The notes under the pieces are model-generated. The model was not told where the DNA came from and did no database searches. It was given only the letters and a program-made list of their open reading frames with translations. Below, in pieces: positions 4,585-48,878 of a stretch of DNA of 64,000 bases. Source of the DNA: a bacterium (GTDB taxonomy: Bacteria; Armatimonadota; Zipacnadia; Zipacnadales; UBA11051); the NCBI GenBank assembly GCA_021372615.1, contig JAJFUB010000092.1:124001-188000 (forward strand), given 5' to 3'. Position 1 is the stretch's first letter. Every line of letters starts with the position of its first letter. Both the position numbers and the translations under genes were made by a program.

Positions 4585-4647
4585 GTGGGAGCAGTCACCG
4601 ACCCCTACCCGCGCGTGCCCGAGGTCGCGGTCGGTGACCGCTCCCAC
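4585..4647. repeat. Type A palindromic element, copy 1
   Basis: This 63-nt element lies between two convergent genes. The ends are GTGGGAGCAGTCACCGACC and the inverse GGTCGGTGACCGCTCCCAC, giving a nearly perfect terminal inverted repeat. The same family is found at 9252-9301, 11513-11562 and 51344-51492. It may also act as a bidirectional terminator here, but there is no T-run. Confidence 0.85.
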
Positions 4648-8956: not shown

Positions 8957-10342
8957 CTAATTGAGCCGGTGCGACATCTGCGCCAGCAGCGCCTCCCGCA
9001 GCCGCCCCGCCTGCTCGGGCTCCGCCTCGCACACGTTCGTCAGCTCGCCCGGGTCCCGGCGCAGGTCGTACAGCTCCCAGCGCTGCTCCCGCGTCTCCGG
9101 GTCCCAGTTCAGGATGAGCTTCCAGCCCTGCTCCCGCACCATCCAGATGCGTCGGTTGTCGCCCTCGAGCGCCTGCCAGCCGGCGGGCATCGTCTCGGCG
9201 AATGCCTGCTGGCGGAAGGCGGCGCTTGCTGGGCCAGTGGGGGCGGTCACTGTGGGAGCGGTCACCGACCGCGACCGTTCGGGGTCGGTGACCCCTCCCA
9301 CACACCCATCCTGCCTCATCAGTCCTTGCCCGATCAGCCCCAGCGCCGACTGCCCGTCGTGCGGCAGCTCCAACGGCACGCCGAGGAGGTCGAGGATCGT
9401 CGGCATGATGTCAACCTGCGAGACCTGCTGCTCGACGGTGACGCCCTGCGGTAGCCCCTTCGGATAGCGCATCAGCAGCGGCACGCGCACGCACTCGTCG
9501 TACAGCGTCCCCTTCAGGTTGCACGAGGTGTGCCCGATGTGGCCTCGCTCCAGCAGTTCCTCGCCATGGTCCGAGGTGATGACGATCAGCGTATCGTCGA
9601 GCTGGCCCACCTCCTCCAGCTTCGCGACCCAGCGGCCCACCATGTCATCGAACACACGCAGCTCACCATCATAGAGCGCGTGGACGCCGGGGCGGTCCTG
9701 CTCGGGCACGAAGTCCACGACCGCCACGCTGCGCTTGTGGGCGTCGTCACCGTCGCCGATGGGGTCCTGACGGCCTGCTTCCATCGCCGAGACGACATCA
9801 GGCGGATGCAGAATCATGCGGGTACGGACGATGTCCAGGCGCTCCTGCGTCGCGACATCGGGGTGGTAGTCGGGCGGCACGAACAGGTCGTAGTACTCCG
9901 GCGGGGGGTTGTACGGCAGATGCGTCGGGTAGGGCATCGCGAAGTAGAACCAGCCGCCCTCGCGGTGGCGGTCGAGATAGCCGAGCAGGTCGTTGTCGTC
10001 GCGGTCGAAGCCCAGCGGCCCCCAGCGCGTCACCAACTCCCCGTCGATCGCGAAGCCCCGGTCGCGCAGCAGGTGCAGCGGCGTGCGGCGGCCGACCCAC
10101 TCCGGGCTCTCGGCCCAGTGCGCGAAGTCGTACGGGCTCTGGATATGGTGCGAGGCCACGTCCTGCCCGGTGATGATTGAGACCACCGGCGGCAGCGTGT
10201 GTGAGGAGACCGAGATGCAGTCGCGGAACAGGACGCCCTCGCGCGCCAGGCGGTCGCAGTGAGGTGTTGTCGGCTTCGGGTAGCCGTAGCAACTCATGTG
10301 GTGAGGCCGCACGGCATCTTCGAGGATGATCAGGATGTTCAT
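8957..10342 (-). CDS. Sulfatase-fold hydrolase with Thr replacing the formylglycine Cys
   Basis: This 461-residue member of the alkaline phosphatase superfamily begins MNILIILEDAVRPHHMSCYG, with E8 and D9 as probable metal ligands. The second metal site, ITSDHGEELLERGHIGHT, is intact. At the nucleophile position it reads SHTLPPVVSIITG instead of C-x-P-S-R. T49 aligns with the Cys and the Arg is Val. A Thr nucleophile is known in this superfamily in phosphodiesterases and LtaS-type phosphoglycerol transferases, so a phosphate substrate or a true sulfatase with altered chemistry are both possible. A type A palindromic element (9252-9301) is read in frame as residues about 347-364. It is part of the operon between a permease and the CBM protein. 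Confidence 0.75.
   Translation of the reverse strand: MNILIILEDAVRPHHMSCYGYPKPTTPHCDRLAREGVLFRDCISVSSHTLPPVVSIITGQDVASHHIQSPYDFAHWAESPEWVGRRTPLHLLRDRGFAIDGELVTRWGPLGFDRDDNDLLGYLDRHREGGWFYFAMPYPTHLPYNPPPEYYDLFVPPDYHPDVATQERLDIVRTRMILHPPDVVSAMEAGRQDPIGDGDDAHKRSVAVVDFVPEQDRPGVHALYDGELRVFDDMVGRWVAKLEEVGQLDDTLIVITSDHGEELLERGHIGHTSCNLKGTLYDECVRVPLLMRYPKGLPQGVTVEQQVSQVDIMPTILDLLGVPLELPHDGQSALGLIGQGLMRQDGCVGGVTDPERSRSVTAPTVTAPTGPASAAFRQQAFAETMPAGWQALEGDNRRIWMVREQGWKLILNWDPETREQRWELYDLRRDPGELTNVCEAEPEQAGRLREALLAQMSHRLN
9252..9301. repeat. Type A palindromic element, copy 2 (inside sulfatase-fold CDS)
   Basis: This 50-nt element has ends GTGGGAGCGGTCACCGACC and GGTCGGTGACCCCTCCCAC. It differs from copy 3 at 11513-11562 by only two or three central bases. 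It lies in the reading frame of the minus-strand gene and encodes VGGVTDPERSRSVTAPT. The flank GGCGGTCACT partly repeats the element, suggesting a small local duplication. Confidence 0.88.
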
Positions 10343-10365
10343 GGCGCGCTCCCCGCGGCCCCAGG

Positions 10366-12381
10366 TCACTTCATCTGCGGCAGGATGATGCCCCGCAGGA
10401 TGATCTTCTGGCAGAACAGGAACACCAGCAGCACCGGGATCGAGTTCACAATGAACGAGGCCATGACCATGTAGGGCGCGCCGGTGAGAGTCTGGCTGAA
10501 CTGGTACGTCCACACCGCGATCGTCCAGATCTTCGGGTCCTGCGCCACGATGATCGCCCACTCCCAGCCGTTGTAGGCCGCGATGAAGGCGTTCAGCATC
10601 CCCACCGCCAGGATCGGCTTGACCAGCGGCAGGGAAATGCGCCAGAAGACGGTCCACTCGGGCGCCCCGTCTATCGTCGCTGCCTCGTATAGCTCCGCTG
10701 GCAGCGAGTCGAAGAAGCCCTTGAGCAGGAAGATGGTCATGCCGTTGGCCGCGCCCGGAAGAACGAGGGCGGCGAAGGTGTTGAGCAGCCCCAGGTCGCG
10801 CAGCAGCAGGAACCCCGGGATGGCCGCCACGGCCGCGGGGAAGGCCATCGTCGCCAGGCAGAAGACGACGATCTTCTCGGTCTGGCGCAGCCGGAACCGA
10901 CTGAGCGCGTACGCCGCCAGCGGGTTGACGGTCAGTGTGATGCAGATGGCGAGAATCACCAGAATCAGCGTGTTGCGCACCGCCAGCCCGCGGTGGATCA
11001 GGTAGTCGAAGACCGCCACGTAGTTCCCGGCGAGGTTGTCGAAGAAGAAGGCCCATTGCTTGTGGGCGAACGTGACCAGCAACGCCTGCCCGAACGGCAC
11101 CCCCAACTGCTCCAGGCTGTCGAGCTTCAGCCCATAGGCCGTGTTGATCCCCGCCAGGCTGCCGTGCCTGGCCAGGGCGAACTCCTGGAAGGCCTGCTCG
11201 GGGAGCGTGTCGCGGATGCGCCACTGCGTGACCGGCACGGTCTCGCGCACGAAGTCCATCCACACGCGCCCCAGCGGGCCATACGGCGCAGTGGGGGTCA
11301 GTCTGACGTCCTGCCAGCGGGCTACAGGCTCAAAGGCTTGCCCCATGCCGGCCAGCACGCGGTTGAGGTAGTCCACACTCGGGAAGCGCCGCTGCAGGAA
11401 GCGTTCGAACTCCGCCTGACGGTTGCCGACCACGATCTCCACGTGGCGCATGGGGAACTCGGTGAGGAGGAACTTCTCCCAGAGCGCGACGAGGTCCGCG
11501 TGTGCGGGACTCGTGGGAGCGGTCACCGACCGCGACCCATCGGGGTCGGTGACCCCTCCCACGCCCGCGGCGACCGGGAACGGCAGCGCCGCCAGTTGCT
11601 CGGGTTTGAGCTTCTCGTCCTGCTTGGCGACGTAGTCCTCCCAGATGAACCGCAGCGCCGCCGGGCGCAGGTACCCCGCCGCCGACGGATCGCCCTTCAG
11701 ATAGGCGGTGAAGCGGTTCTCCCGGTAGGCCTTGCGGAACTCCAGCAGGTCCCGGTAGCGCACATCCACTTCCGGAATGTAGGTCGCCTGGTCTACCGGT
11801 TCCCCGCTCCATTCGCTGGCATTGACCTTGGCGAAGTCATCAATGGTCATCTGCCACGCCTGGTTGAGCGCCGCCAGAGTGCCGTAGCGTCCACGCAGGA
11901 AGGGCGCGATGTAGCGGTTGTCGTACGCCAGGATCGTCTCGGTGACGTTCCAGTCACGCATGAAGTCCGCATAGTCGCGCGCGGCCGTCTCGAGGCACTG
12001 GCGCTGGTCGGGGTCCCGCAGCAGCGCCAGTTGCTTGCGCGCCCAGGCGTCGCTGGCCTGTCGCTCGTCGCCGATGGCGCTCCACAGCGACCAATCTTCC
12101 GGAAGGTCCGGGAAGTACTGCCGGAGCTGCCGCAGGGACGCCCGGTGGGCCGGCGGGAAGTACGCGCACAGCATGTGCATGAAGCGGTCTTGGCGGGACC
12201 ACAGGTAGCGCGGGGCCGGGTCGCGCCGGTCGTAGTCGAAGCCGTTGCTGACCGAGCCGGTGAGCATCACGGCGAAGGGATACACCATCGTGAGGCCGCC
12301 GAGCAGCAGCGTCACGTAGATCCACGCGGTAAGCGCGCGGCCTTTGGCTGACTTGCGGTCTATGTCACTGATGATGGGCAT
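10366..12381 (-). CDS. Carbohydrate ABC transporter permease (MalG-like) with a giant periplasmic insertion
   Basis: The protein has 671 residues, against about 280 for ordinary MalG-like permeases. TM1 is at about 15-40 (WIYVTLLLGGLTMVYPFAVM). The remaining helices are in the last 250 residues, with the EAA loop YEAATIDGAPEWTVFWRISL that contacts the ATPase. Between them lie about 370 soluble, tryptophan- and tyrosine-rich residues that should face the periplasm. I recognise no domain in them. A type A palindromic element is read in frame near residues 273-290. It probably pairs with the fusion permease at 13270. The ATPase must be supplied from elsewhere. No clear Shine-Dalgarno is visible, and the gene starts 18 nt after the preceding stop. 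Confidence 0.82.
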   Translation of the reverse strand: MPIISDIDRKSAKGRALTAWIYVTLLLGGLTMVYPFAVMLTGSVSNGFDYDRRDPAPRYLWSRQDRFMHMLCAYFPPAHRASLRQLRQYFPDLPEDWSLWSAIGDERQASDAWARKQLALLRDPDQRQCLETAARDYADFMRDWNVTETILAYDNRYIAPFLRGRYGTLAALNQAWQMTIDDFAKVNASEWSGEPVDQATYIPEVDVRYRDLLEFRKAYRENRFTAYLKGDPSAAGYLRPAALRFIWEDYVAKQDEKLKPEQLAALPFPVAAGVGGVTDPDGSRSVTAPTSPAHADLVALWEKFLLTEFPMRHVEIVVGNRQAEFERFLQRRFPSVDYLNRVLAGMGQAFEPVARWQDVRLTPTAPYGPLGRVWMDFVRETVPVTQWRIRDTLPEQAFQEFALARHGSLAGINTAYGLKLDSLEQLGVPFGQALLVTFAHKQWAFFFDNLAGNYVAVFDYLIHRGLAVRNTLILVILAICITLTVNPLAAYALSRFRLRQTEKIVVFCLATMAFPAAVAAIPGFLLLRDLGLLNTFAALVLPGAANGMTIFLLKGFFDSLPAELYEAATIDGAPEWTVFWRISLPLVKPILAVGMLNAFIAAYNGWEWAIIVAQDPKIWTIAVWTYQFSQTLTGAPYMVMASFIVNSIPVLLVFLFCQKIILRGIILPQMK
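11513..11562. repeat. Type A palindromic element, copy 3 (inside permease CDS)
   Basis: This 50-nt element is nearly identical to copy 2. It is read on the minus strand in the same frame as copy 2, as VGGVTDPDGSRSVTAPT, within the large periplasmic insertion of the permease. Confidence 0.88.
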
Positions 12382-28746: not shown

Positions 28747-29490
28747 CTAGGCGGGAGGCCCACCCGGTCCGCCGGCCGGGGGACCACCAGGCCCGCCCGC
28801 CGGGGGTCCTCCAGGGCCGCCGGCGGGAGGCCCACCGGGACCGCCAGCCGGAGCACCACCCGGCGCCCCCATGCCGCCAGGAGCCGCGGCTGGGGCCGCA
28901 GCCGGCGCCGCACCAGCCGACTTCATCCGGCTGACCGCGGCCTTGGCTTCCTTGACCTTCTTGGCGTCTTTGCTCACCTTGAGGAAGCTGTTGAAGGTGG
29001 CGATGGACTGCGGGCGCTGCCCCTGCTCGGCCAGGATCCAGGCCTTGCCATAGAGCGCCAGGGCGTCCTTGGGGTTCTTCTGCAGGTTGGCCTCGAAGAT
29101 CCCGAGCGCCTGGGTATAGTCGCCACTGTGCTTGATGTTCAGGCCTTCCTTGGTGGTCTTCCCGGGGATGGGCGTGATAGCCGCCGCGCCTCCGGCCGCC
29201 GGTGCGCCCTCAGGGGCTCCGCCAGGGCCGCCCGCAGCTTCCGCGCCGGGAGCGCCCTCGGGTCCGCCAGGACCGCCGCCAGGAGGTCCGCCGGCCTCCG
29301 CGCCAGGTCCGCCGGCCGGTGGCCCACCGGGGCCACCGCCAGGAGGTGCGCCCGCTTCCGCACCCGGGCCACCTTCAGCGGCGCCTCCCTCTTCCGTCTC
29401 CCCCTTGCTGCCACCAAACAGACATCCGCTACACAGCGACACCAGCAGGGCCAGTATGACCAGGACGGCTAAGACGATCGGTACTCTCAC
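28747..29490 (-). CDS. Exported TPR protein flanked by collagen-like Gly/Pro repeats
   Basis: The protein has 247 residues. A hydrophobic N-terminus (VPIVLAVLVILALLVSLCSGC) is a signal peptide or lipobox with a weak fit (CSGC). Residues about 30-120 are low-complexity Gly/Pro/Ala/Glu repeats such as GGPPAGGPGAEAGGPPGGGP. Residues about 125-200 contain two TPR-like helical pairs (SGDYTQALGIFEANLQKNPK, GQRPQSIATFNSFLKVS). The last 45 residues are four copies of GGPGGPPA. The start is GTG with AAGGA 7 nt upstream. The role is unknown. Repeats of this kind usually span the cell wall or form flexible stalks. Confidence 0.72.
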   Translation of the reverse strand: MRVPIVLAVLVILALLVSLCSGCLFGGSKGETEEGGAAEGGPGAEAGAPPGGGPGGPPAGGPGAEAGGPPGGGPGGPEGAPGAEAAGGPGGAPEGAPAAGGAAAITPIPGKTTKEGLNIKHSGDYTQALGIFEANLQKNPKDALALYGKAWILAEQGQRPQSIATFNSFLKVSKDAKKVKEAKAAVSRMKSAGAAPAAAPAAAPGGMGAPGGAPAGGPGGPPAGGPGGPPAGGPGGPPAGGPGGPPA

Positions 29491-37722: not shown

Positions 37723-37733
37723 GGTAGTTCGCT

Positions 37734-37793
37734 GGAGGGGCCGGCTACCAGCCGGCCCGCTGTTCCCTGGGCCGGCTGATAGCCGGCCCCTCC
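37734..37793. repeat. Type E palindromic element, copy 1 (nuoI-nuoJ spacer)
   Basis: This 60-nt element has two hairpins, GCCGGCTACCAGCCGGC and GCCGGCTGATAGCCGGC, inside GGAGGGG/CCCCTCC terminal repeats. The left half recurs at 40791-40822 with two mismatches. Confidence 0.88.
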
Positions 37794-40781: not shown

Positions 40782-40790
40782 GTGTCGTCT

Positions 40791-40822
40791 GGAGCGGCCG
40801 GCTACCAGCCGGCCCGCCGTTC
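40791..40822. repeat. Type E palindromic element, half copy (nuoC-nuoD spacer)
   Basis: This 32-nt element holds the GCCGGCTACCAGCCGGC hairpin with the GGAG start. It matches the left half of 37734-37793 with two differences, in the same orientation. Confidence 0.85.
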
Positions 40823-42830: not shown

Positions 42831-43850
42831 ATGCCCCGTATCCCCTGGTCTATCGCTGTGCCGCCCGAGGTCTACTGCGAGGTCTGTGGTGCCACCATGA
42901 GTGCGTACCACAGCAGTCCTGCAGTGCAGATGGACGTCCAGCTTCGGGGTCCCCGGACCTTCCACGAGCGCTACGGCCTGCCCCCAAGCAAGCACATTGT
43001 GCCAGATTTCACAACCTACCTGACGGGCTCCGTCTTCGGTCTCGAGTTTGAGGTCTTCGAGGATCAGGTCCCCGCTCCCCGGGGCCACCCCATCGCCAGC
43101 ACCCAGGAAGCCGCCGCCCTGACCGTGCCCGAGGACATGAGCCGGGCGGGCACCTTCCCGCGCGCCCTGGAGTTCTACGCGTGGATGCGGGCCCACGCCC
43201 CGGAGGGCGTCAGCGTGGGCTTCACCGGTGGCAGCCAGGCCCCCTTCACGACGGCGGTCCTGCTGCGCGGCGAGGGCTTTCTGCTCGATCTCGTGGACCA
43301 CCCGGACCTCGCCCACCGCTTCCTGCAGACGCTGACGGAGACCAGCATCCGCCAGCGCGAGTTCGCCCTGTCGGTCGTAGGAGCGCCGGCTTCCAGCCGG
43401 CACATGCCGCCCGACTGGCACGCGCCGCAGGACTCCCTCGGCTTCACTGACGACTACGGCGGCCTCCTGGGTCCCAATCTGTACTACGACTGCGACGTGC
43501 AGTACATGCTCCAGATCGCCGACCACTTCGGCGCCACCCGCAAGACCATCCACACCGAGCTGCTCCGCCAGCCCCACCTGGCGATCCTACAGGAGCACGG
43601 CTGGGGCTATATTGACGTCGGCACCGACCCGTACCTGACCATCGCCGACTGCCGCGAGGTGCTCCATATCCCCTTCCTGGTGCAGATGAAGACGAGTGCG
43701 GAGATGCTGCACTCTACGCCGGAGGCGATCCAGGCGCGCTATCGGGAGATGGTGGCCGAGGGGGCACAGACGATGCTCGTCGAGCTGTGCCGGGGGGTGC
43801 CCGAGGCGAACATCCGGGCGTTCATCGAGGTGGCGAGGGAGTTTGAGTAG
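42831..43850 (+). CDS. URO-D-like protein carrying an in-frame palindromic insert
   Basis: The protein has 339 residues and is of the URO-D superfamily, as judged by the barrel pattern (VSVGFTGGSQAPFTTAVLLR, FLLDLVDHPDLAHRFLQTLT, YIDVGTDPYLTIADCREVLH). It lacks the His-x-Cys zinc motif of MtaA/MtbA. The ATG has AGGAG 9 nt upstream. Residues 183-191 (VGAPASSRH) are encoded by a 27-nt type F element. They are low in hydrophobicity and probably form a surface loop. It is divergent from nuoA, and its function is unknown. Confidence 0.68.
   Translation: MPRIPWSIAVPPEVYCEVCGATMSAYHSSPAVQMDVQLRGPRTFHERYGLPPSKHIVPDFTTYLTGSVFGLEFEVFEDQVPAPRGHPIASTQEAAALTVPEDMSRAGTFPRALEFYAWMRAHAPEGVSVGFTGGSQAPFTTAVLLRGEGFLLDLVDHPDLAHRFLQTLTETSIRQREFALSVVGAPASSRHMPPDWHAPQDSLGFTDDYGGLLGPNLYYDCDVQYMLQIADHFGATRKTIHTELLRQPHLAILQEHGWGYIDVGTDPYLTIADCREVLHIPFLVQMKTSAEMLHSTPEAIQARYREMVAEGAQTMLVELCRGVPEANIRAFIEVAREFE
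43377..43403. repeat. Type F element, half copy, in frame in the URO-D-like gene
   Basis: This 27-nt segment, GTAGGAGCGCCGGCTTCCAG then CCGGCAC, is exactly nine codons. It matches the inverse of the right half of 48810-48870. Confidence 0.85.
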
Positions 43851-48809: not shown

Positions 48810-48870
48810 GTAGGACCGCCAGCATCCTGCTGGCGAACGGCCTGTGCCGGCTGGAAGCCGGCGCTCCTAC
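48810..48870. repeat. Type F palindromic element, full copy
   Basis: This 61-nt element has GTAGGA/TCCTAC ends around two hairpins, CGCCAGCATCCTGCTGGCG and GCCGGCTGGAAGCCGGC. It ends 8 nt before the serpin stop. A half copy lies in the URO-D-like gene at 43377. Confidence 0.88.
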
Positions 48871-48878
48871 GGCAACGT

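Follow-up and report, generated by a model that had tools for sequence, protein, structure and literature searches.

In-frame REPINs within protein-coding genes of an Armatimonadota bacterium

Two neighbouring genes and the palindromes inside them

The window analysed here is a 64,000-nt stretch of contig C92 from a bacterial genome of the phylum Armatimonadota (6.41 Mb in 171 contigs, 97% complete). Two neighbouring genes on the minus strand of the window each contain a 50-nt palindrome, and further members of the same repeat family lie between genes. The features used below are as follows.

4585-4647, strand not given: intergenic member of the same REP family, 63 nt, with a longer spacer
8957-10342, minus strand: host gene 1, sulfatase-fold hydrolase (P0001), 461 aa, intact; PF00884, E=3.5e-38, best stretch 119-322
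9237-9251, minus strand: partial third REP arm, 15 nt, adjoining the sulfatase copy; GTGGGGGCGGTCACT on the plus strand
9252-9301, minus strand: REPIN (REP doublet) in the sulfatase-fold gene; VGGVTDPERSRSVTAPT on the minus strand, aa 348-364 of P0001
10366-12381, minus strand: host gene 2, ABC transporter permease (P0002), 671 aa, intact; PF00528 (BPD_transp_1) at residues 504-664
11513-11562, minus strand: REPIN in the ABC-permease gene; VGGVTDPDGSRSVTAPT on the minus strand, aa 274-290 of P0002
51344-51492, strand not given: intergenic array of three direct REP units and one inverted unit

The original prediction, made from the letters of the window, was that nearly identical 50-nt palindromes are read in the same frame inside two neighbouring, unbroken genes. 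A repeat search of the window confirms the pair (9252-9301 and 11513-11562) at 96% identity, minus-strand translation gives VGGVTDP(E/D)xSRSVTAPT in the same frame from both copies, and the sulfatase-fold and permease frames are intact at 461 and 671 aa. Host gene 1 also matches 5g2v in a phmmer search, and its insert lies past the end of the Pfam Sulfatase match; the permease insert lies within the long region N-terminal to the BPD_transp_1 domain. The partial third arm beside the sulfatase copy recurs as a nearly identical extension next to the copy that a methylpurine-DNA glycosylase gene carries on a different contig (C76:33235-33305). The sharing of this junction by two unrelated genes suggests that the unit was copied as a block.

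Judged by its sequence features, the element is a REPIN, that is, two REP hairpins in inverted orientation. The hairpin has the consensus GTGGGAG-SGGTC-ACC-GACCS-CGA, and a variable 4-nt loop separates the two inverted hairpins. Each arm by itself resembles a REP and forms its own stem-loop (GSGGTC-ACC-GACCSC). Units start mostly with GTGG and in a few cases with GTAG (C19:79011, C102:94350 and C169:3027). Arms are of two types, GCGG..CCGC or GGGG..CCCC, and a doublet with one arm of each type is here called an unlike-arm doublet. In nearly every arm, the exchange of G and C at positions 8 and 20 of the unit alters the stem on both sides, so that the hairpin is preserved. The 2.17 Mb in which genes were called contain 40 doublets of this inverted ('><') kind with a short variable loop. 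Even among the eight copies with identical arms (46 of 46 positions), all eight loops differ, with a mean pairwise loop identity of 43%.

The window also holds repeats of other kinds. A second palindrome, GTAGGAGCGCCGGCTTCCAGCCGGC, has two inverted copies at 43376-43409 and 48838-48871, the first overlapping a predicted gene (42924-43850); in a rough scan of the 2.17 Mb, 9 of 32 members of this family were genic. A third, GGAGSGGCCGGCTACCAGCCGGCC, occurs at 37732-37765 and 40789-40822, just past the 3' ends of genes, and tandem 24-nt G+C-rich units (GGCGGGAGGCCCACC...) occupy 28750-28870.

Copies across the genome and their absence from homologues

With up to three mismatches allowed, the half-unit GTGGGAGCGGTCACCGACC matches the genome at 343 places (180+163), versus 11 (7+4) for the reversed control, so that the repeat is not a product of chance. 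Counts of genic copies refer to 2.17 of the 6.41 Mb, in which a codon-usage script called 1,513 genes (87.7% coding), while GGGG arms and unlike-arm doublets were listed for the whole genome. The 2.17 Mb contain 110 sites: 37 inside genes, 4 at gene edges and 69 intergenic. The family thus combines high copy number with a mostly extragenic location, as expected of REPs. With 37 of 110 sites genic in sequence that is 88% coding, insertions into genes are strongly depleted; they are selected against, yet often tolerated. A search for other genes encoding the peptide, proposed along with the original prediction, is answered by these 37 genic sites. Many contigs start or end inside REP units (for example C9, C10, C58, C66, C73 and C75); REP arrays thus seem to break the assembly, and copy numbers are probably undercounted.

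Among 80 related genomes, the half-unit matches in just three, G001 (10 matches), G046 (3) and G020 (1), so that the family expanded in this lineage. G001, the closest of the relatives with copies, is identical over 2.2 kb to Armatimonadetes bacterium Ch33, which places the host in Armatimonadota and in the family of that genome. The half-unit also occurs in other species, namely some Planctomycetota, Limnohabitans and a few others, and the exact 50-nt doublet was found in none of 84,980 other species, a set that may not include the genome of the window. In G001, two related REPs 66 nt apart (C127:39877-39965, L186/L188) share an open frame of about 800 codons, where they read VGRVSDPDA and VGGISDPDA; genic copies in the same frame may thus be present in this relative as well.

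In the original prediction, the element appears to have moved into both window genes. All four sulfatase homologues, from genomes of the same family and about 62-64% identical overall, are without a 32-aa stretch at the repeat, and all six permease homologues (63-78% identical) are without 18-19 aa exactly at the repeat. The peptide residues are found in none of the four sulfatase homologues and in none of the 6-9 permease homologues, in agreement with the claimed movement; homologues carrying the same residues without the DNA repeat, which would speak against it, do not occur among those aligned. The insert is clearly absent from relatives in 18 of the 20 genic copies compared, and for the other two (C105 and C130) the relatives are too divergent for a clear call. 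The segment is missing, for example, in 9/9 relatives of a GFO/IDH oxidoreductase, 6/6 of MutS, 6/6 of the C161 gene, 5/5 of the C95 gene and 8/8 of the C40 gene, and in further single cases. This is the behaviour of a Rickettsia-palindromic-element-like repeat: in-frame insertion in genes whose homologues are free of the insert. In the same comparisons, the net insert size of single doublets ranges from 39 to 69 nt; thus, either the insertion is not a clean 51-nt event or its size is blurred by indels in the loops of the homologues.

The hosts include valyl-tRNA synthetase, with the insert separating the anticodon-binding domain from the C-terminal arm; a RluD-like pseudouridine synthase, with the insert between the S4 and catalytic domains; an oxidoreductase, with the insert between the NAD-binding and C-terminal domains; MutS, with two inserts; and a NuoF-like subunit, a carbohydrate kinase and the methylpurine-DNA glycosylase. 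A fused double UvrA of 1,868 aa (L147:2195-7801, contig C47) also has two inserts, a REP group at the junction of the halves and a doublet in the second half; its residues 2-924 match the UvrA of 9gxk, and the C-terminal part matches 2vf7 and 7sh1. The original prediction took the peptide to be tolerated as a surface loop, and in several hosts the inserts fall in linkers or where Pfam domains meet, which supports such a putative loop.

Arm types, reading frame and alternative explanations

Arm types are distributed very unevenly between genes and other sequence. GGGG and GCGG arms stand at 28:36 in genes versus 6:116 elsewhere (p=2e-10). Because some contigs had been picked by similarity to the window copy, the test was repeated on contigs chosen by the GCGG half-unit only, where the ratio is 12:22 in genes versus 1:75 elsewhere (p=1.6e-6). 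For arm type, the odds ratio is 15-41 overall, with p<=1.6e-6. The whole genome has 39 GGGG arms and 13 unlike-arm 50-nt doublets, 11 of the latter in genes. The hairpin of these doublets is weaker, with a fold energy of -42 versus -52 to -54 kcal/mol. That genes retain the unlike-arm form is probably due to its causing little disturbance: the hairpin loses about 10 kcal/mol of stability, and the peptide contains fewer arginines. We regard it as conceivable, although rather doubtful, that the 50-nt unlike-arm REPIN is a subtype that mainly inhabits coding sequence and is shaped by coding, with a weaker hairpin and one frame that yields a stop-free peptide of low charge; its normal habitat would then be genes and not intergenic DNA.

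One could go further and regard the genic unlike-arm doublets as a specialised group that either seeks out coding DNA or is kept there for some benefit to the element or its host, such as a peptide tag or mRNA structure. The 11 of 13 doublets in genes, the enrichment of the arm type and the single phase described below can all be cited for this idea. Yet 11 of 13 also roughly matches the share of the genome that is coding (88%) and is expected from random insertion of a nearly neutral element, for which no targeting is needed, and the hosts are functionally unrelated. We therefore consider a specialised subfamily unlikely.

The 50-nt doublet has two stop-free phases, and all 13 genic 50-nt doublets use the same one, phase 0 (p about 1e-4 if both open phases were equally good). 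Over all genic sites, the forward-arm phases are 28/2/10. The avoided phase 1 would give the peptide GRGHRPR..VAVGDRSH with five or six Arg/His residues, whereas the phase used has only one to three. Sequence background was considered as a cause of the frame bias and rejected, as genic TGGGA prefers the phase that places GTGGGA at phase 2, not 0. None of the 73 non-genic sites splits a recognisable gene, judged by paralogues within the 2.17 Mb. Taken together, the frame bias, the Arg/His contrast, the exclusion of codon background and the lack of split genes point to translation of the inserts and to selection on the peptide, a conclusion that we draw from sequence patterns.

These results bear directly on the idea that the inserted DNA is never translated and is instead bypassed by the ribosome or cut out of the RNA, in the manner of small introns or of the bypassed inserts known from some mitochondrial genes of yeast. 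A very stable hairpin of fairly fixed size in many genes would suit such a process, but the frame would then not have to be kept, and all 13 genic 50-nt doublets share one stop-free phase. The strong preference of forward arms for one phase, the lack of recognisable genes split by non-genic sites and the varying net insert sizes argue against it as well, and we give this idea very little weight. Less probable still is an artefact in which repeats were mis-joined into genes of a fragmented genome. The 171 contigs, many with ends within REP units, make the concern a reasonable one, but the genic copies are contig-internal, homology assigns both flanks to a single gene, correctly ordered and in frame, and about 20 such outcomes are implausible for chance mis-joins. 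Finally, the same frame and nearly the same peptide in the two window hosts could suggest a conserved motif inherited by both proteins, with the DNA likeness secondary, but the host folds are unrelated, relatives of both proteins without the peptide refute it, and the same DNA is also found between genes and in other phases and orientations, so that this explanation has almost no probability left.

Mobilisation and relation to known palindromic elements

The reading that we prefer, and hold to be very probably correct, is that the REPIN is a non-autonomous mobile element, that it has multiplied across this Armatimonadota genome and that its in-frame copies in linkers or loops survive. Mobilisation would be by a Y1 (RAYT-type) transposase acting via single-stranded hairpin DNA. 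Genic copies would survive if the net length change is a multiple of three, the frame read is stop-free and the insertion point falls in a linker or loop; translation would then yield a peptide of about 17 aa with few hydrophobic residues, and the host protein would keep its function despite the peptide.

Target duplications at the edges of the element, a proposed sign of movement, are absent: flank identity is at chance level for 2-4 nt, and among the 40 doublets a flank duplication is seen in 1/40 at 5 nt and in 0/40 at 6-9 nt. The target-site duplication of a classical MITE, derived from a DDE transposase, is thus lacking. Together with the stem-loop units and the combination of variable loops and constant arms, this lack fits a Y1/RAYT-type single-strand mechanism. 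The 97% complete genome has seven Y1_Tnp genes, and none of the seven is flanked by the element's REP, the arrangement typical of a RAYT; the nearest to that REP is on C154, at 1.6 and 2 kb. REPtrons can be absent from some species (Di Nocera et al. 2013, PMC3733652). In our reading of their motifs, the Y1_Tnp proteins of C154 and C125 look RAYT-like. Another Y1_Tnp gene (contig C34 near 112930, L101/L015) is flanked by inverted, different palindromes, GTAGGAGCGCCA, and is likely to be a RAYT with its own, different REP family.

REPINs consist of an inverted REP pair with a variable loop, occur in high copy number, are thought to be moved by RAYT and are described as mainly extragenic. The present element shares the two inverted REPs, the variable loop and the many copies, but a third of its sites are genic, as are most of its unlike-arm doublets. 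Families of Rickettsia palindromic elements are lineage-specific, and several are longer. These elements are mobile palindromes found in frame in many unrelated proteins as tolerated extra peptides (PMC3733652), and the likeness to them lies in the in-frame insertion of a palindrome in many unrelated proteins, with no claim of a sequence relationship. The comparison with Rickettsia in the original prediction thus stands as a parallel case and not as one of closest molecular kin, which are the REP/REPIN elements (GTAG-type REPs; for REPINs, Bertels and Rainey 2011, PMC3116915).

REP dimers in frame in genes have been reported from Opitutus terrae, Thioalkalivibrio and others, with the largest numbers of intragenic dimers in Opitutus terrae and R. 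conorii; their hosts include uvrA (two insertions), tRNA synthetases, pseudouridine synthases and other repair genes (Di Nocera et al. 2013, PMC3733652). The hosts described here are strikingly similar to those of the GTAG-type dimers (fused UvrA twice, MutS twice, ValRS, a RluD-like enzyme and a DNA glycosylase), whereas the element is of another sequence family, comes from Armatimonadota and starts mostly with GTGG versus GTAG. The gene-associated unlike-arm subtype and the frame bias are not known from that paper. Nematomorpha mitochondria likewise have inverted repeats in coding genes, but those palindromes are mitochondrial and reach 284 bp (PMC6649704).

The type of event is thus already known, in-frame REP dimers in genes of other bacteria having been reported in 2013; new in this case are the phylum, a subtype with unlike arms that is associated with genes, and a strong bias towards one frame. 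The short list of groups in which mobile palindromes write peptides into working proteins thereby gains a phylum distant from Rickettsia and Opitutus, and here too the hosts include repair and translation genes. Both the arm subtype and the bias in frame provide statistical evidence for selection at the protein level sorting the insertions, and whether selfish palindromes give rise to new segments of proteins, a long-standing question, becomes directly testable.
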